From Cyanidium caldarium (lineage: Eukaryota; Rhodophyta; Bangiophyceae; Cyanidiales; Cyanidiaceae), in contig JANCYW010000001.1 of NCBI GenBank assembly GCA_026184775.1, positions 620,001 to 684,000 on the forward strand: a DNA stretch of 64,000 nucleotides. Direction: 5' to 3'. The first letter of the stretch is position 1, and each line of letters opens with the position of its first letter. The notes under the pieces are model-generated. The model ran no database searches. It had not been told where the DNA came from and saw nothing but the letters and a program-made list of their open reading frames with translations. A program made the position numbers and the translations under genes. Positions 42,384 through 49,961 of this stretch are shown here, piece after piece.

Positions 42384-43298
42384 TCAACTGATGCCGTCCT
42401 CCAACGTCTCCAACGTTGCAAGCGCCCCACCGTCATTCGTCGCTGCGGTCGGCTCGTCCGAGGCCATCGCAGCGCTCGCTCCATACAAATACACACGACC
42501 GATGACGCGGTTGGCAAACGCGCGACCGTCGCTGGTGAGCGCGGTGAAGGCACATCGTTCGCGCGACACGCAAGTGGCCACCCAAACGGCGCGGCGGGCC
42601 ACGTCAAGGAGCTGGGTGGCGATGCCCCGACAGCGGTATCGCCAGTGCACCCACACGCGGTCGATGCCACACCAGGCCGATGGCTCATGGCCGCCAGCGC
42701 ACACCCGCAACGGCCGCGCGACCACCACTCCGATCGCTCGGCGCTGGGTGCGCGTCATGGCCACGAGAGTGGTGCAGCTGGGCGATATGTCCATGGCAAC
42801 ACTTGCGTCTGCCGAAGAAGCGTCTCCGTTCCAATCGCGACAGGCCAACCGCCACACCGCCGCGAACCACGCTTGATGAATCGACCAGGACGTACCAGCA
42901 CCTGTTGCAGACTTGCGGTTTGGAGAACCGGAGTCGACCGGCACGATATCCACCACCTCGCCATCCCGCAACGCCTCACCACCTCCCTTCCCAGCATTTA
43001 TCCTAAAGTGGTGTACGGCGGCACTCGACGCAACCGCCTTTCCCGGCACGCGCACCCCCAGATTGGCCTCCGCGTGATATCGCTGGTGGACGGCCTCGTC
43101 CTCGGCCACCCCGGCCACATAACCGTACTGACAGTGCGGGCACACGGTGAGACCGATACGCCGTCGCTGCCCCAGCTGCAAGTACGTCTGCTGCAGACGA
43201 GGCGATTCCGTGCCCTGTGTTGGAGTCTTCGGTTTCCTTTTGCGATGGAGGGTGTTGCACTGAGCAGTTTGATAACCGCGTCCCCGCCTGGTCGACAT
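42384..43298 (-). CDS. ECO1: cohesin acetyltransferase ESCO/ECO1/CTF7
   Basis: 304 residues. ECO1 acetylates the cohesin subunit SMC3 in S phase to establish sister-chromatid cohesion. The N-terminus holds the family zinc finger: QQTYLQLGQRRRIGLTVCPHCQYGYV (about 35-60) with H-x3-H as HQRYH at about 72. The C-terminus holds the acetyl-CoA fold: CGIDRVWVHWRYRCRGIATQLLDVARR (about 215-241), where R-x2-G-I-A is the acetyl-CoA loop, and FTALTSDGRAFANRVIG-x-VYLYG (about 255-278). This DGR-FA wording replaces the usual S-P-T-x-x-G-x-x-FA. Close to the minimal length for the family. Convergent with NMD3 (29 bp). Confidence 0.88.
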   Translation of the reverse strand: MSTRRGRGYQTAQCNTLHRKRKPKTPTQGTESPRLQQTYLQLGQRRRIGLTVCPHCQYGYVAGVAEDEAVHQRYHAEANLGVRVPGKAVASSAAVHHFRINAGKGGGEALRDGEVVDIVPVDSGSPNRKSATGAGTSWSIHQAWFAAVWRLACRDWNGDASSADASVAMDISPSCTTLVAMTRTQRRAIGVVVARPLRVCAGGHEPSAWCGIDRVWVHWRYRCRGIATQLLDVARRAVWVATCVSRERCAFTALTSDGRAFANRVIGRVYLYGASAAMASDEPTAATNDGGALATLETLEDGIS

Positions 43299-43436
43299 CT
43301 CGTTCCGAAACGGGTGGTTTGTTGCTCGCTTGATCAGATTCTCGTGCTCCCTGCTCCCTGCTCCCTGCTCCTATTCGCGCGAGTCGATTCGTTCGCGCCA
43401 TCGCTCGCGGCGGTTCGGCGCGGCGGTTTCCAAGGC

Positions 43437-43460
43437 GGTCGGTCGGTCGGTCGGTCGGTC
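43437..43460. repeat. (GGTC)6 microsatellite
   Basis: Six perfect GGTC units in the 180 bp between the divergent ECO1 and mitochondrial carrier starts, 17 bp before the carrier ATG. Confidence 0.92.
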
Positions 43461-43477
43461 GGTTGCGTGTTGCGACC

Positions 43478-44731
43478 ATGCAGACGGATTCGGTGCCGGT
43501 GTTGCAAACCAGTGCACACCACTTGCACTTGAGGAGGATCAGGAGGAATCGATGGACGGTGGAGTGCGAAAAGATGAGAGGAAGAGGAGAAAAGAGCCAC
43601 AAGCTGGCGTTAACAACTGCGTTGGCGGCGGTCTCTCCTGAGCCGCGTTTCAGCCAGCTGGCCAAACGGTTGCGGCTATTGTCCGTGCAGTTTTCCAGCT
43701 GGTTTTCGGCGGCGCCGTCGCATCGATCCGATGCGCACGTCTCGCGCATAGCCAGTGAACGAGAAACAGGCACAGCGGCGCCTTGGATGAATTTCGTGGC
43801 CGGCGTGGTGGCCACGCTGGTCACTCGGGTGGCGCTCACCCCGTTCGACGTCGTCAAGACCAATTTGCAGTACATCAAAGGCCAGCCCGGACTGCCCACA
43901 CTCCTGCCTTATCGGGTCGGGTGGGTGATGCGCGATATTGCCAGAAGAAATGGCCCGGCCGGATTTTGGAGCGGTCTGCCCGCTGCCCTGCTCGGCGGTG
44001 CGCCGGCGCAGGCGCTCTACATGACCGTGTACAGTGCGTGCAAGGTACGATTGGGCGCATCGCACCCCGATGCATCCCGCGGTGCTTTGCTGCGCGTGGC
44101 GGCGGCGGCCGCGCTGGCCGATGCGATGGTGGCGCTGGTGCGCGTGCCGCCCGAAGTGGTCAAGCAGCAATTGCAAACCGGCCAGCATCGTAACACCTGG
44201 GCGGCAGTGCGAGCACTGGCCCAGCGGCCGCTGCACCGTGGCGGCTTTTACCAGGGGTTCTGGGCGCAAGTGTGGCGCGATGTGCCCTTTGCGGTGACAC
44301 TATTCGTGGCGTACGAGCTGCTGAATCGACAGGCGGCGAGCCGAGCCGCGCGAGCGCAGCACACTGCGCAAGTGGGCACCGACGCCTTGGCACCGCCCCC
44401 TTCATCTTCCCCCGTGGCCTGGACGAGTGGTGCGGCCGGCGCCATTGCGGCACTCTGCACCATGCCGATGGACGTGGCCCGCACCCGGCTGATGACTCGG
44501 CCGCCGGACGAGTACCGCGGCGTGTGGCATGCCATGCAGCGCATCGCCCGCGAGGACGGCGTGGCGACGCTGTTCGCCGGCACCATCCCGCGCATCCTCT
44601 ACAAGATACCCTCGGCGAGCATCTTCCTCACCAGTTTCGAGGCCACCCGCACCATGCTGCTTCGACACCATCAGCGATGCAACGCGGGTGACGCGACCGA
44701 AAGGTACTCTCCTGCTAGTGTGGCACAGTAG
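43478..44731 (+). CDS. mitochondrial carrier family (SLC25) protein
   Basis: 417 residues from the ATG at 43478. Three tandem carrier repeats are visible, each with the P-x-[DE]-x2-[KR]-x-[KRQ] signature: TPFDVVKTNLQ (about 123), VPPEVVKQQLQ (about 230) and MPMDVARTRLM (about 332). Second-half motifs such as GFWSGLPAALLGGAPAQALYMTVY and FYQGFWAQVWRDVPFAVTLFVAYELL also fit. The second and third repeats resemble the S-adenosylmethionine carrier group (SAMC/SLC25A26), which serves mitochondria or plastids in plants; this substrate call is tentative. The first ~105 residues are an unusually long, basic leader, not typical of mitochondrial carriers but found in plastid-targeted ones. Confidence 0.85.
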   Translation: MQTDSVPVLQTSAHHLHLRRIRRNRWTVECEKMRGRGEKSHKLALTTALAAVSPEPRFSQLAKRLRLLSVQFSSWFSAAPSHRSDAHVSRIASERETGTAAPWMNFVAGVVATLVTRVALTPFDVVKTNLQYIKGQPGLPTLLPYRVGWVMRDIARRNGPAGFWSGLPAALLGGAPAQALYMTVYSACKVRLGASHPDASRGALLRVAAAAALADAMVALVRVPPEVVKQQLQTGQHRNTWAAVRALAQRPLHRGGFYQGFWAQVWRDVPFAVTLFVAYELLNRQAASRAARAQHTAQVGTDALAPPPSSSPVAWTSGAAGAIAALCTMPMDVARTRLMTRPPDEYRGVWHAMQRIAREDGVATLFAGTIPRILYKIPSASIFLTSFEATRTMLLRHHQRCNAGDATERYSPASVAQ

Positions 44732-44849
44732 GACGTATGAGGCGCCTGCCGAGGACCGGCGCGGCACCCCCTCGCCGCCGCGAACCCTTTATGACTCGTT
44801 TTGCGATCGTACCGCTGCTGCGGGCTCCACCAAAGGGGGTGGACTTAAG

Positions 44850-44884
44850 TTGGCCGACCAAGTCGCGTGCCGGCTTGCCAGGCT
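44850..44884 (+). other. 35-base tRNA intron at position 37/38
   Basis: It interrupts the anticodon loop after G37 and before A38, the standard nuclear tRNA intron site. Removing it restores a perfect five-pair anticodon stem. CTTG at 44874-44877 can pair with TAAG (44846-44849), the usual anticodon-intron pairing. Confidence 0.8.
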
Positions 44885-44931
44885 ATCCACTGCGAATATT
44901 TCGCTCGTGAGTTCGAATCTCGCCGCCAGCA

Positions 44932-44993
44932 TGAACGGTAGGGCGGGTACAAGCCGACGGCGCTGCGCCGTTGCCTGCCGCCCGCCCCCGCCA
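44932..44993 (+). other. intervening sequence between the 3' and 5' tRNA halves
   Basis: 62 bases between the discriminator base of the 3' half and the first acceptor base of the 5' half. In permuted genes this segment is removed from the circular precursor by RNase P and RNase Z. It has a strong hairpin, ACGGCG-CTG-CGCCGT (about 44957-44971), flanked by GGCGGG...CCCGCC words. Confidence 0.8.
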
Positions 44994-45041
44994 GCTGGCG
45001 TGCCCGAGTGGTTAGGTCCGCATCGCCGTGAAGAGAGGACA

Positions 45042-45046
45042 TTTTT
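45042..45046 (+). terminator. Pol III terminator (T5) after the permuted tRNA
   Basis: A TTTTT run on the coding strand about 28 bases after the 5' half, as expected for RNA polymerase III. The internal promoter boxes occur in reversed order: B-box-like GAGTTCGAATCTC (44909-44921) precedes the A-box-like TGGCGTGCCCGAGTGG (44996-45011). Confidence 0.75.
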
Positions 45047-45288
45047 GGGTGAGGGAGGGAGAAGATGTTTTGTTTTGCGGTCTCGGGCTCGGCTTTCATT
45101 TCGGTGCGTGTGTCCATTCGTGCTTTTCACGTATCGGAAGCGTTACCTGAACGTGACGCTCGGCGACGAACCCTTTTTGTCGCCAACATTCGGTGCGGGA
45201 GACGCGCGACAACCGTCACCCGAACCGCGCACGCCTCCTCTGACGATACAACGAGCACGTCATTCAAAGATCAACTGAGGTGCTCGAC

Positions 45289-46623
45289 ATGAAACGTACG
45301 GCGTTCTGTCCTGCAGGTGCTCTGCGACTTCAACAAACTCCCTCACCGCTCTCCCGGTGCACCTCACCCGCGCGGCTCACACGGTACTGCCTGAGTCGAC
45401 TGCGCCTGTGCGAGAGCGGAGCGCCACCGCTCCACTCCGAAACACAACCCTCCCGCCAGGCTGAGCACCGCTCCACGCCACCGGATCGATCACTGGACAC
45501 GGCGGTCGGCGGCGACGGCCGCGGTGGATCGGGCGGCGGTGCCGGTGGTCCCAACGGCGGTGGTGGATCGGGCGGCGCGAATGGCGACGACGGTTCCCGC
45601 GGTGTCGATCCTGAACTGCTCGGGGTGATGCTGGCGTACCAGCGTGCCCTATCCAGCCTGCCGGCCGAATTGCAAGAGGCGGTGCGGCACGGCTGGCTGA
45701 CCCGCACGCAGCTGGCCGGGTATCTGTCGCAGGATCGCTCGTGGATGTCGTGGCTGCTGCGCTGGCCAATGCTGCGCAACCGAGTGCTCTGTGACCCGGA
45801 GTTTATGTTCAAGCTGTGGGTGCAAGAATGGGTGGGCAACGGCACGCAGCTGGTCGGTGAATTGCTGGTGCGCGGCCGCGAGATCGTGGACGAGCTGGAG
45901 TACGTATTGGCGGACCTGGTGGTGGGCACCGTGGTCGAGGCTTCTTTTGTGGTGCTTCTCGCGCCGGCCATGCCGTTCCTGCGGCGGCCGCCGTCGGCCG
46001 CTCCGGCCACGCGAGGCACCGGTGCCGTGCTGGAGGCGTATCGTCGGTGGTCGTTGTCGCTGCCGGCCAATGCGTTCGAGGCGTCTATCCCGCCCGCGCG
46101 CGTCTACTCGCTGACGTCGCGGTTCATCACCGTGGTGAACGCCTCCGCGCAGTACTTTGCCATCGGCGTGGTGTGCGGGCTGGTGGGTACCGCGCTCACC
46201 TACGGTATGCTGGAGGCGCGGCGCCTCTTCGACCCGGCGTATCAGCCGCTACGACCGCAGCCGCCGGTGCTGCCCAACTCCATCGGCTGGGGCGCGTTCA
46301 TGGCGCTCTCCAGCAATCCGCGCTTTCAGTTGGTGGAGGGGCTGGAGCGCCTGTCGCAGTGGGTGCTGCGGCGGCACCCGATGGCCAACCGGGCGGTGAT
46401 TATTGCGCTGCGTTTGGCGAACAATTTTTACGGCGGGATACACTTTGTACAGTTCTTCCGCTGGACCGGCCTGCAGACCGTGGCCGAGGCGACGACGGCG
46501 ACAACCGACGCGGAGGTGTTGACGGCGGGCGCCGCGCATGTGGTGCAGGCGACATCGTCAGCAGACTGGGAGGCGCTGCTGGCCGCGGTGATGCGCGCGA
46601 TGTCCATGGAAGCTGTGCTATAA
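45289..46623 (+). CDS. RETICULATA-related chloroplast envelope protein (DUF3411)
   Basis: 444 residues from the ATG at 45289. RETICULATA and RETICULATA-RELATED proteins sit in the plastid inner envelope of plants and affect leaf cell development and amino-acid metabolism; the molecular role is unsettled. The N-terminal ~60 residues are Arg/Ser/Pro-rich (MKRTAFCPAG...), a plausible transit peptide, followed by a Gly-rich linker. The DUF3411 core begins DPEFMFKLWVQEWVGNGTQL and contains ELEYVLADLVVGTVVEASFVVLLAPAMPF (about 203-231), LPANAFEASIPPARVYSLTSRFITVVNASAQYFAIGVVCGLVGTALTYGM (about 262-311, read in parts) and the end LANNFYGGIHFVQFFRWTGLQ. Several membrane spans fit. Confidence 0.87.
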   Translation: MKRTAFCPAGALRLQQTPSPLSRCTSPARLTRYCLSRLRLCESGAPPLHSETQPSRQAEHRSTPPDRSLDTAVGGDGRGGSGGGAGGPNGGGGSGGANGDDGSRGVDPELLGVMLAYQRALSSLPAELQEAVRHGWLTRTQLAGYLSQDRSWMSWLLRWPMLRNRVLCDPEFMFKLWVQEWVGNGTQLVGELLVRGREIVDELEYVLADLVVGTVVEASFVVLLAPAMPFLRRPPSAAPATRGTGAVLEAYRRWSLSLPANAFEASIPPARVYSLTSRFITVVNASAQYFAIGVVCGLVGTALTYGMLEARRLFDPAYQPLRPQPPVLPNSIGWGAFMALSSNPRFQLVEGLERLSQWVLRRHPMANRAVIIALRLANNFYGGIHFVQFFRWTGLQTVAEATTATTDAEVLTAGAAHVVQATSSADWEALLAAVMRAMSMEAVL

Positions 46624-46687
46624 ACGAACCACAAATAGGATTGGTACAAAAGTGGGGGCAGCGTCTGAACTCGCCCTGATCAAACGA

Positions 46688-47782
46688 TTATCTTTGGGGA
46701 TAGGCCACTTTTGGCGCGGCCATCGGGTCCGCCGGCAATTCCTGTGCCGCACGCGATACCCGTTGCGACAACTCCAACGCGATACGCACGGGCGCGTTCA
46801 CCGTCAGATGTGGGCGCAGCGCTTGCCACGCGGCAGCCGCCTCCGTCGGGATATGCAGCCGTAACCGCCGCGGCGTGTTTCGCAAGAGTGCTTCGTCGGC
46901 GGCGCCATTCGCGTTTGCGTCCACTGGCTGCATATGCACCGTCACCGAAATGGTCGCTGGCGCGGTGCCATCCCGCGTCTCCGCTTTCACCATCGCCCTC
47001 GCCGCATACCACCCCGGCGCGATCGGCGGTTGATTCTCCCAACCCGCCACCCGCGCCTCCATGCCACGCTCCTCGGTACCGATGACTTGCATTGCGCCAT
47101 GCACCTGATGTGGACGCCCTAGCAGGCCGGCCACCTGCTCCATATCACCGCGCGCCAGACATTCCCGCACCCGCGTGGACGACACCCGTTCACCGCCATA
47201 CAGCACCGGCGGCAGCGCATCCACCGTGAGCGGTCGGCTGTCCCGAATACACTCCTCGGCAAACGCCAAAAGCGTCTGTACATCGCCCTGAGCGCGGTGT
47301 CCAAAGCGCCAGTTGGCACCGCACACCACCCCGGCCGCACCGAGCCGCCGCACCACGTACTCCTGCAAGAACGCCCGCGGCGACATCTGCCGCAACTCGG
47401 CAAACGGCAACACCACCGAATCGAAGGCGTCCGCATCGCCACCCAGCCAAGAGCTCACCACCTGCTCCATATGCGTGCGGGGCACAATCGGCAGCCGCGC
47501 CTCCCAGCCGAGCGCCTCGGCCATGCCGCTGAACGACAGCAACACCGGTCGGCCGCGCTCCGCAGCCCGCAACACCAGCGCCCGGTGTCCCAGATGCAGC
47601 GCATCAAACTTCCCCGGCACGATGATTCTTTCGGAAGAAGAAGCAGCCTGGTTGCGAACGTGCAACGTGCGACCACCGCGTGTAACGCGGGCAGCAACGC
47701 ATCCGCCGCCGGGCCGTCGCACCGCTCGACCCAGCGTGCCGGCCCATGCGCCACCGAAAAGGAGCGGTGAAGACGGCCGCAT
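46688..47782 (-). CDS. RIBF: plastid-type FAD synthetase (RibF, FMN adenylyltransferase)
   Basis: 364 residues from the ATG at 47782. Joins FMN and ATP to FAD. The nucleotidyltransferase domain is intact: PGKFDALHLGHRALV (about 72-86) with the HxGH motif, LPFAELRQMSPRAFLQEYVV, VVCGANWRFGHRAQGDVQTLL (about 165-185), and SSTRVRECLARGDMEQVAGLLGRPHQVHG (about 215-243). The bacterial riboflavin-kinase half is represented only by a degenerate C-terminal region, as in the monofunctional plant plastid enzymes RibF1/RibF2. The basic, Gly/Arg-rich first 60 residues fit a plastid transit peptide. Its start codon overlaps a plus-strand ATG (the sequence CATG). Confidence 0.87.
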   Translation of the reverse strand: MRPSSPLLFGGAWAGTLGRAVRRPGGGCVAARVTRGGRTLHVRNQAASSSERIIVPGKFDALHLGHRALVLRAAERGRPVLLSFSGMAEALGWEARLPIVPRTHMEQVVSSWLGGDADAFDSVVLPFAELRQMSPRAFLQEYVVRRLGAAGVVCGANWRFGHRAQGDVQTLLAFAEECIRDSRPLTVDALPPVLYGGERVSSTRVRECLARGDMEQVAGLLGRPHQVHGAMQVIGTEERGMEARVAGWENQPPIAPGWYAARAMVKAETRDGTAPATISVTVHMQPVDANANGAADEALLRNTPRRLRLHIPTEAAAAWQALRPHLTVNAPVRIALELSQRVSRAAQELPADPMAAPKVAYPQR

Positions 47783-48014
47783 GAAGGAGGTGATGATCTC
47801 GCGTCGTCGGGAGAATGTCCTCGTCCGCATTGCCCTTCCCGTTGTTATGAAGCACTTCCCATTATGTCTCGGGGAGTGGAAACGCGTGCAGCGCCCTCGT
47901 CCGAGGTGCCCCCTCGAAGGAGCAGCGCGGCGGCGGGGCGCGGTTTGCGGTCCGACGGCGTCCGACGAGAGCAGCCGAGGCAACTGCTTGCGGAAGCGCC
48001 TGGAAACACTCAGC

Positions 48015-49961
48015 ATGGAAGAGGGGGCGTTGCGGATCAACCAAAAGTACGCCGAAGAGTATGCACGGCGGAAGCGGCGGGAGGAGCTGTCTCGGTTGCG
48101 GGATCTGGAGCGAGAACGGAGGAAGGAGAGACGGCGCGGGGAGCGCGGGGGAGCGGCCGACGGCCGCGAAGCATCGTCGCACGAGAGCAGCACCAGTGAC
48201 GATGAAGACGATGAGGATGAAGAGGAAGATGAGTGTGCTGTGTTGTTGACTCGGAAGATGGACGCGCAGTGGGCGGCGACGCTGGAGGCGATACGTCGAC
48301 GGGACGCGCGCATCTACGACGCGAACCACCGCTTCTACGACAGCGACAGCGGCTCGTCGAGCTCGTTGGGCGATGAGCCAGTGGCTGGATACGAGACGGT
48401 GGTGGCGGCGGGCGTCGGTCGGGAGACCGGCCTGCTGCTGAAAGACTACGTGCGGCAGCAACTGCTGACCGAGGGACTGGAAGGCGGTTCCTCCTCAACG
48501 GAGTCGGAGGGCGCAGATGCCCGGGCGGCAACGCCAAGGCAGCGAGATGGCGATGGTGTAGGTGGCCATGTGCCCGTGTATGATGCCGAGCAAGCCGAGT
48601 TGCGACGGGCGGTCCTGAACCAGAGCGCAAGAATGGGCGACGAGACCGGCGAGAGAGACGATGTCCACTCGGACGACGCCGAGGACGACTTGTTCCAACT
48701 CAAGCGGCGGGATGCACTCTGGGAGGATATTGCACCGACGGCACGCGAGAACGGGCAGCTGACGGGAGAGGAGGCTGCGGCAGCTTCAACCGTCGTACCG
48801 TCGGTTGTTGCCACTGAAGACGACAGCGCACACGCGTATTTGGAGCGGGAGACGGCCGATGAAAAGGAGCGCTTTCTGCGTGAGTTTGTTCTGCGTAACG
48901 GCTGGTTGCCAGTCGCTGCCGCTGGCCCGGGCGCCTCATCGACTCGCCCATCCGTATCGCTGGAGCGCCGGCACACTCCCACCGATGAATCCGGCACCGC
49001 CTGCGATACATCCGCCTCGACGGATAGCGTGGAGGAAGACGCGGCATTCCTGCAGAAGCAGGAACAGTTCGAGTATGCACACAATTTCCGTTACGAGGAG
49101 GCGTGCGCGACACAAGTACCGACGCATCCGCGGCGCGTTCCGGACTCGATGCGGCGGCCGAGCGGCAAGAGCGAGGCGCGACGACGTCAGCGCGACATGC
49201 GGCAGCAGCGCAAAGAGGTGGAACGCCGGCGCCGCGAGGAGGAGTTGAAGCGATTGAAGAATTTGAGGCGCGCAGAACAGGCGGAACGGATTCAGCGCCT
49301 GGCCCGCGCCGCCGGATGCGAGGCGAGCGACAAGACGGAGGCGGTGTTTGCGCAACTGCTCGGCGATGACGACGATTCGGATTTCGATCCCGACAAGCAC
49401 GACCGATTGATGGGGGCACACTTTGAGAGCGAAGTATACCGAAATGCGCCCGATGCCGACCTGGAGCAGCAACGGCACCGGGAGGATGCCGAGACGGCGG
49501 CCTGGTCGGATGATCAGGATGACAAAGAACGGGAGGACGCGATGCGTCCATCTCGCAGCCGCGGGCGGTCCGCCGATCGTACAGACGCGCTGGAGCATCA
49601 TCTGGACCAGCTCGACCGAGAGGATGTGCTCGCCGGCACTCGCTTCCATTATCGACCGGTCGATCCGGTGGACTGCGGCTTATCCGCGCTGGACGTCCTC
49701 AACATGGACGACAAGGAACTGAACCGATTTGTATCCATCAAGTACTACCGGCCGTTTCGCCCGCCGCATAGCTTGCCCAGACGCATCCGCAAACTGTTCC
49801 GCGGCAACGTGAGTATGAAGAGGCACCGCCTGGCGCGAGCATCTCGGCCGGAGGAAGGAGGGAGGGCAAGTCACCGTCGGGGTCGTTCTCCTGAAGAGCG
49901 GTTATCCGCCGAAGATATTCGCCGGCGCGCCTATGGTATCCATCCGCGTGAGAAAAATTGA
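48015..49961 (+). CDS. KRI1: ribosome assembly protein KRI1
   Basis: 648 residues from the ATG at 48015. KRI1 works with KRR1 in the small-subunit processome for 40S assembly. The start MEEGALRINQKYAEEYARRKRREEL lines up with the family's first block, and WAATLEAIRRRDARIYDANHRFYD (about 86-109) with the second. Acidic/Ser linkers follow. EQFEYAHNFRYEEACATQVPTHPRRVPDSMRR (about 345-376, read in parts) is the RFEE region of the Kri1 family. The C-terminal domain is unmistakable: RFHYRPVDPVDCGLSALDVLNMDDKELNRFVSIKYYRPFR (about 546-585, read in parts). Starts further upstream (47781) are open but add nonconserved sequence and collide with RibF's start. Confidence 0.9.
   Translation: MEEGALRINQKYAEEYARRKRREELSRLRDLERERRKERRRGERGGAADGREASSHESSTSDDEDDEDEEEDECAVLLTRKMDAQWAATLEAIRRRDARIYDANHRFYDSDSGSSSSLGDEPVAGYETVVAAGVGRETGLLLKDYVRQQLLTEGLEGGSSSTESEGADARAATPRQRDGDGVGGHVPVYDAEQAELRRAVLNQSARMGDETGERDDVHSDDAEDDLFQLKRRDALWEDIAPTARENGQLTGEEAAAASTVVPSVVATEDDSAHAYLERETADEKERFLREFVLRNGWLPVAAAGPGASSTRPSVSLERRHTPTDESGTACDTSASTDSVEEDAAFLQKQEQFEYAHNFRYEEACATQVPTHPRRVPDSMRRPSGKSEARRRQRDMRQQRKEVERRRREEELKRLKNLRRAEQAERIQRLARAAGCEASDKTEAVFAQLLGDDDDSDFDPDKHDRLMGAHFESEVYRNAPDADLEQQRHREDAETAAWSDDQDDKEREDAMRPSRSRGRSADRTDALEHHLDQLDREDVLAGTRFHYRPVDPVDCGLSALDVLNMDDKELNRFVSIKYYRPFRPPHSLPRRIRKLFRGNVSMKRHRLARASRPEEGGRASHRRGRSPEERLSAEDIRRRAYGIHPREKN

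Follow-up and report, generated by a model that had tools for sequence, protein, structure and literature searches.

Does a locus of Cyanidium caldarium at which the 3′ half of a tRNA-Leu(UAA) precedes its 5′ half encode a working tRNA, and by which route could its transcript be matured? The locus lies in a stretch of 64,000 nt (the window, to which all coordinates refer) with a GC content of 64.8%, taken from a genome assembly of 8,787,356 bp in 20 contigs, and it is flanked by ORFs for a mitochondrial carrier (43463-44731) and a RETICULATA-like protein (45280-46623). Further along the window, two ORFs with Pfam hits overlap on opposite strands, a FAD synthetase-like one (46688-48313, -) and one for KRI1 (47313-49961, +); the start of KRI1 is probably located further downstream than that of the ORF.

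By direct reading of the + strand, the 3′ half (44833-44931) was found to precede the 5′ half (44994-45013); the individual features are listed in Table 1. The spliced tRNA, composed of 44994-45013, 44833-44849, and 44885-44931, has 84 nt, belongs to class II, and carries the anticodon TAA. In the joined form A73, T8, G18G19, a match of G15 with C48, and the T loop TTCGAAT are present, and CCA is not encoded. All seven pairs of the acceptor strands are Watson-Crick pairs, the T stem has 5 of 5 pairs including one G-U, the anticodon stem and the variable arm have 5 of 5 pairs each, and the D stem consists of three C-G pairs that form solely after the halves are joined. These results confirm the observation of a 3′-half-first tRNA-Leu(UAA) gene at 44833-45013. 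An earlier note on this DNA had described the reversed order of the halves, their separation by 62 bp, the pairing of the acceptor strands at seven positions, the closure of the D stem just on joining, perfect stems with a class II variable arm, pairing of leader and trailer, and a T5 stop downstream, all of which held. Two of the ends it gave (44931 and 44994) stood, whereas the other two (44832 and 45014) were one base off and are read here as 44833 and 45013. The 35-nt intron at 37/38 went unreported in that note, which also overlooked that the Leu(UAA) gene of Cyanidioschyzon merolae agrees with this one in both its junction and the site of its intron.

Table 1. Features of the tRNA-Leu(UAA) locus in window coordinates; ^ marks a predicted cut, and numbers such as 37/38 are tRNA positions.
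Feature	Coordinates	Strand	Remarks
TATA-like box TTTAT	44788-44792	+	45 nt before 3′ half
Leader end	44820-44832	+	44820-44826 forms helix h with 45015-45021 of trailer
Helix H	CCAC 44827-44830, GUGG 45008-45011	+	possible pairing
Bulge CA^A, leader side	44831-44833	+	predicted cut 44832^44833
3′ half, exon 1	44833-44849	+	A21-G37; 3′ strand of D stem, 5′ strand of anticodon stem
Anticodon TAA	44846-44848	+	inside exon 1 of 3′ half
35-nt intron at 37/38	44850-44884	+	anticodon loop; from ARAGORN on joined halves
3′ half, exon 2	44885-44931	+	38 to A73, including 3′ strand of anticodon stem; CCA absent
Variable arm	44892-44904	+	inside exon 2 of 3′ half
T arm	44907-44923	+	inside exon 2 of 3′ half
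Acceptor 3′ strand	44924-44930	+	inside exon 2 of 3′ half
Discriminator A	44931	+	inside exon 2 of 3′ half
Intervening sequence, 62 bp	44932-44993	+	predicted hairpin on acceptor stem
5′ half	44994-45013	+	acceptor 5′ strand, T8 G9, D-stem 5′ strand CCC
Junction	end of 44994-45013	+	D loop through 20/21
Bulge UU^A, trailer side	45012-45014	+	predicted cut 45013^45014
Trailer	45014-45041	+	45015-45021 pairs with leader
T5, likely RNA polymerase III terminator	45042-45046	+	starts at +29 from 5′ half

As the earlier note had anticipated for ordinary scanners, ARAGORN and Rfam miss this gene: across the whole window in genomic order ARAGORN named no tRNA, and Rfam gave none at gathering score. 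The unspliced halves were joined with 60 different combinations of ends, and for 42 of these ARAGORN reported tRNA-Leu(taa) with the 35-nt intron. After splicing, the 84-nt form was likewise named tRNA-Leu(taa); neither the genomic-order control nor any of 500 sequences made by shuffling the letters of the spliced form was called. A mechanical rule for the permuted arrangement, which demands a T-arm motif (stem 5/5), a downstream acceptor strand pairing 7/7, D and anticodon stems that close, T8, A14, and GG, had one match in the window and none in 100 dinucleotide shuffles, the rule having been drafted with the gene in view. A type-I covariance model trained on class-I permuted tRNAs scored only 18.8 bits (E 0.0015) at this locus and aligned the wrong halves, probably because its training set lacks both an intron and a long variable arm. 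At the gene, a type-II model run on the window scored only 13.3 bits.

When 44810-45035 was folded without constraints, the minimum-energy structure contained all tRNA stems together with the leader:trailer pairing (44819-44826 with 45015-45022) and the hairpin of the intervening sequence; its z score was -3.05, and none of 200 shuffles was equally stable. This prediction allows a bulge-helix-bulge between leader and trailer, with two 3-nt bulges. We call it relaxed because the register required for canonical cuts lies 0.9 kcal/mol above the minimum-energy register (ACCA/UGGU) and because the D-stem side is imperfect. The junction of the C. merolae Leu(TAA) gene, listed as HBh′, is likewise not of the strict form (PMC3978253; here as for the other papers cited, reference is to the accessible portions of text and tables). 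The two predicted cuts would yield the D loop GAGUGGUUAAGG, which is identical to a stretch in the linear Leu(GAG) of the same genome. For the 35-nt intron no strict bulge-helix-bulge was found in the lowest-energy folds, in contrast to the C. merolae Leu(TAA) intron, whose motif is listed as hBHBh′ (PMC3978253).

We infer that the gene would be matured as follows. RNA polymerase III would synthesize one RNA running from the leader through the 3′ half, the intervening sequence, and the 5′ half to the trailer, in which leader and trailer would pair and, with both ends of the tRNA, form the relaxed bulge-helix-bulge in the D loop. Cuts at 44832^44833 and 45013^45014 would then be made by the tRNA-splicing endonuclease, and a ligase would seal the two D-loop ends to give a circle. 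The anticodon-loop intron would be excised by the same splicing machinery, and the circle would presumably form before this intron leaves, since the 37/38 motif of C. merolae was reported to be the last one processed (PMC3978253). Finally, RNase P and tRNase Z would excise the 62-nt intervening sequence, and CCA would be added. A pathway through the splicing machinery fits with the two tRNA_int_endo domains and the one RtcB that the genome encodes, and RtcB may be the enzyme that joins the D-loop ends. RT-PCR on algal permuted tRNAs detected both linear permuted precursors and circles in which the intervening sequence was retained; the splicing machinery was named as the likely cutter of the junction, and the intervening sequence was considered to be possibly excised by RNase P and tRNase Z (PMC3978253).

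These data are best explained by reading the locus as a tRNA-Leu(UAA) gene permuted in the manner known from C. merolae. With a probability of about 95%, we regard it as a working, probably single-copy nuclear gene for a cytosolic tRNA-Leu(UAA), permuted at 20/21 (type I), carrying a 37/38 intron, and corresponding to the C. merolae gene. The basis is the anatomy of the locus, the complete cloverleaf, the compatible predicted fold, and the presence of endonuclease and ligase domains in the genome. Copy number was addressed in three ways. A DNA search of the genome with the Leu(UAA) region returned a single locus among the best-scoring candidates; a search with the spliced 84-nt tRNA returned, among the best candidates scored, its own two pieces alone (the third piece, of 20 nt, was unreported); and Leu(taa) was absent among the loci named by ARAGORN. 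The intact linear Leu(UAA) elsewhere that would have spoken against the proposal of the earlier note was thus found neither by DNA search nor among the ARAGORN-named loci, and a diverged second copy could have escaped the search. Because a second copy was not found, the permuted gene is probably the sole decoder of UUA, though this codon is rarely needed: in a sample of eight mechanical ORFs with Pfam hits (four of them trimmed, two overlapping), the 421 leucine codons include 6 that are UUA.

The locus might instead be a pair of remnants left by the decay of tandem linear tRNA-Leu genes, with the working tRNA encoded elsewhere. Permuted genes have indeed been proposed to arise from tandem duplicates that lose their outer halves (Soma 2014, PMC3978253). 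Such a pseudogene pair is very improbable, since the genome searches revealed no other copy among the best-scoring candidates, every stem is intact, and 42801-47100 contains no good extra half-copies (the best others match at 14/20 and 26/47); moreover, a C. merolae counterpart with identical junction and intron site is listed in PMC3978253. We give just as little credence to a split tRNA, the halves of which would be made as two separate RNAs and then trans-spliced, as might be supposed from the distance between the halves and from a junction of the splicing type. The 62-bp intervening sequence, in which no run of four or more T was found, leaves little space for a second promoter and, according to the predicted fold, forms a hairpin on the acceptor stem; in addition, the algal permuted tRNAs studied by RT-PCR gave linear permuted precursors and circular intermediates (PMC3978253).

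The permuted Leu(UAA) gene is accompanied in this genome by eight further permuted genes, for Gln-CTG, Leu-CAG, Thr-CGT, Thr-AGT, iMet, Ala-TGC, Arg-CCT, and Lys-TTT. In order of locus number, not of the genes just named, the eight loci are L015 (contig C5), L018 (C18), L020 (C2), L023 (C9), L044 (C10), L045 (C11), L047 (C13), and L118 (C11). The Rfam tRNA family had 22 matches in the genome, 16 of them above the cut-off. ARAGORN with introns allowed named 15 of these 22 loci, none with any of the nine permuted anticodons, and four of the seven unnamed ones were recognized by direct reading as permuted: Lys(TTT), type IV, above the cut-off, and, below it, iMet, type III (50/51), as well as Ala(TGC) and Arg(CCT), both type IV. 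Besides its permutation, Arg(CCT) (L023 on C9) contains a 48-nt D-loop intron at 14/15; an intron at the same site, of 27 bp, is listed for C. merolae Arg(CCT) (PMC3978253). Three ends of this intron were tried, each of which led ARAGORN to name Arg(cct), and the end giving 73 nt was kept.

Three of the remaining four genes were detected with the type-II covariance model, and the fourth, Thr(CGT), which had already been noticed, was scored by it as well; the model had been built from other tRNAs of the genome, and none of the four belonged to its training set. In 70 loci (93 minus 23 carrying ARAGORN-named tRNAs) it scored Thr(AGT) with 59.1, Gln(CTG) with 48, and Leu(CAG) with 37.3 bits, and in 38 small loci Thr(CGT) with 55.5 bits; it is not fully specific and also scored linear tRNAs (27.1 bits at L016, 24.1 at L022, and below). 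A type-IV model, run over 41 of the 93 loci as well as the window, placed Lys, Ala, and Arg on top, all three being members of its training set; it left their 3′ halves unplaced, and these were located by reading. Its fourth match, iMet (L018), was a partial alignment. All nine permuted genes were named as expected by ARAGORN in the joined form (Arg after removal of the intron) and none in genomic order; their junctions were set where the cloverleaf closes, not mapped on RNA.

The sequence TTTAT or TATAT occurs at most 70 nt upstream in seven of the nine permuted genes (not in Gln and Thr-CGT), the distances for Leu-CAG and Thr-CGT being off, and in all nine a run of five or more T begins no further than 29 nt past the 5′ half. 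A box resembling CTTTATAT recurs about 35 to 65 nt upstream of permuted and linear tRNA genes, for example at L015, L016, L018, and L020, and could help to locate missing tRNA genes. Misassembly or a local rearrangement in the assembly that reversed the order of the halves is the least probable explanation of all, for although a single assembly was examined, both Leu(UAA) halves lie on one strand, and an assembly error would hardly yield nine permuted genes with C. merolae junction types on eight contigs.

The tRNA census in which no linear copy of any of the nine permuted species was seen is incomplete. All of the 22 Rfam loci but L019 were resolved in it, and it also covered places matching T-arm patterns: for GGTTCRANTCC 30 of 31 places were examined, the remaining one being known; for AGTTCRANYCT all 10; for CGTTCRANYCG 30 of 230, chosen among 100 listed; for GGTTCRANCCC 11 of 14, with 3 in known loci; and for TGTTCRANYCA all 19; none of the 29 places of GGCTCRANYCC was examined anew. 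Permuted genes specific to Cyanidium could have escaped this census. A D-arm pattern used for Gly(CCC), the remaining species that is permuted in C. merolae, had 15 places, one of which is the known Gly(TCC), and none of the eight examined read as a tRNA; Gly(CCC) would escape the T-arm patterns because in C. merolae its T loop is interrupted by an intron (PMC3978253).

Some ARAGORN calls are read differently here. At L062 the call was linear Thr(cgt) containing an intron of 77 nt, which, if true, would rival the permuted Thr(CGT); after splicing between 37 and 38, ARAGORN named the locus Pro(cgg), which we take as right. L039, called Ser(cga), was read by eye as Pro on the basis of what we take to be Pro features, and L013, called Ala(CGC), was read by eye as Ser(CGA) with a 37/38 intron from its long variable arm, G73, and loop. 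As also judged by eye, L021, L022, L063, and L036 are linear tRNA genes (Ser-GCT, Glu, probably elongator Met, and probably Pro, respectively) with introns in the D arm and/or the anticodon loop, some of them probably with two introns. For genomes of this type, ordinary scanners leave a tRNA set that is far from complete.

Permuted Leu(UAA) is already known from C. merolae and is not a new kind of gene. For Cyanidium, we found no report of permuted tRNAs, or of the set being conserved, in the open literature, mainly titles and the beginnings of abstracts, and a prior description is possible; in their accessible portions, PMC13353863 contains the word "permuted" just in a reference, the main text of PMC9812998 does not contain "tRNA", and PMC9602550 and PMC3978253 name Cyanidium in references alone. 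Whether permuted tRNA genes are ancient relics or later, patchy rearrangements has been debated (Soma 2014, PMC3978253). C. merolae has 11 permuted genes for 10 species (Soma 2014, PMC3978253), and by anticodon and junction type, as given in Table 1 of that paper, 9 of these 10 are shared with C. caldarium; the tenth, Gly(CCC), did not turn up in the incomplete census. The split between Cyanidium and Cyanidioschyzon has been dated to about 0.3 billion years ago (PMC13353863), and that nine anticodons with their junction types are common to algae separated for so long suggests old and stable inheritance in this lineage. As linear copies of the nine species were not seen in the census, selection may act on the permuted arrangement, or on the circular intermediate that it forces, rather than the arrangement being a neutral relic, an idea we consider rather doubtful. 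Since C. caldarium NIES-551 can be transformed (PMC13353863), the effect of replacing a permuted by a linear gene could be asked.

Comparison of listed features rather than of sequences identifies the C. caldarium gene as the probable counterpart of C. merolae Leu(UAA), which according to Table 1 of PMC3978253 is permuted as well: isoacceptor, type I 20/21 junction, and 37/38 intron are common to both. With the C. merolae permuted genes in general, most of which have TATA-like sequences at most 50 bp upstream, it shares a TATA-like box upstream, a T run downstream, and an unencoded CCA (PMC3978253). The two Leu(UAA) genes differ in the length of the intron (35 nt in C. caldarium, 21 bp in C. 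merolae) and of the intervening sequence, which is 62 bp here and 10 bp there. The corresponding values for the other species (C. caldarium/C. merolae, in bp) are 22/31 for Gln, 12/9 for Leu-CAG, 26/31 for Thr-CGT, 73/24 for Thr-AGT, 117/74 for iMet, 75/8 for Ala, 24/23 for Arg, and 71/38 for Lys (C. merolae values from PMC3978253). The 62 bp of Leu(UAA) lie inside the range of 1 to 74 bp in Table 1 of that paper, whereas iMet and Ala of C. caldarium exceed it.

Reversed halves are also found in the permuted tRNA genes of the green alga Auxenochlorella, which were discovered after tRNAscan-SE had returned an incomplete set (PMC12633428). In Thermofilum pendens, the permuted genes for iMet and Tyr resemble C. 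caldarium Leu(UAA) in that the 3′ half comes first and a 37/38 intron is present; unlike it, they are archaeal, encode CCA, have their junction in the T loop, and possess intervening sequences of 1 to 7 bp (PMC3978253). Ostreococcus lucimarinus and Micromonas pusilla have the same isoacceptor, Leu(UAA), with reversed halves, but there the junction is located in the anticodon loop at 37/38 (type II) and the genes are intronless (PMC3978253); they probably originated independently of the C. caldarium gene.
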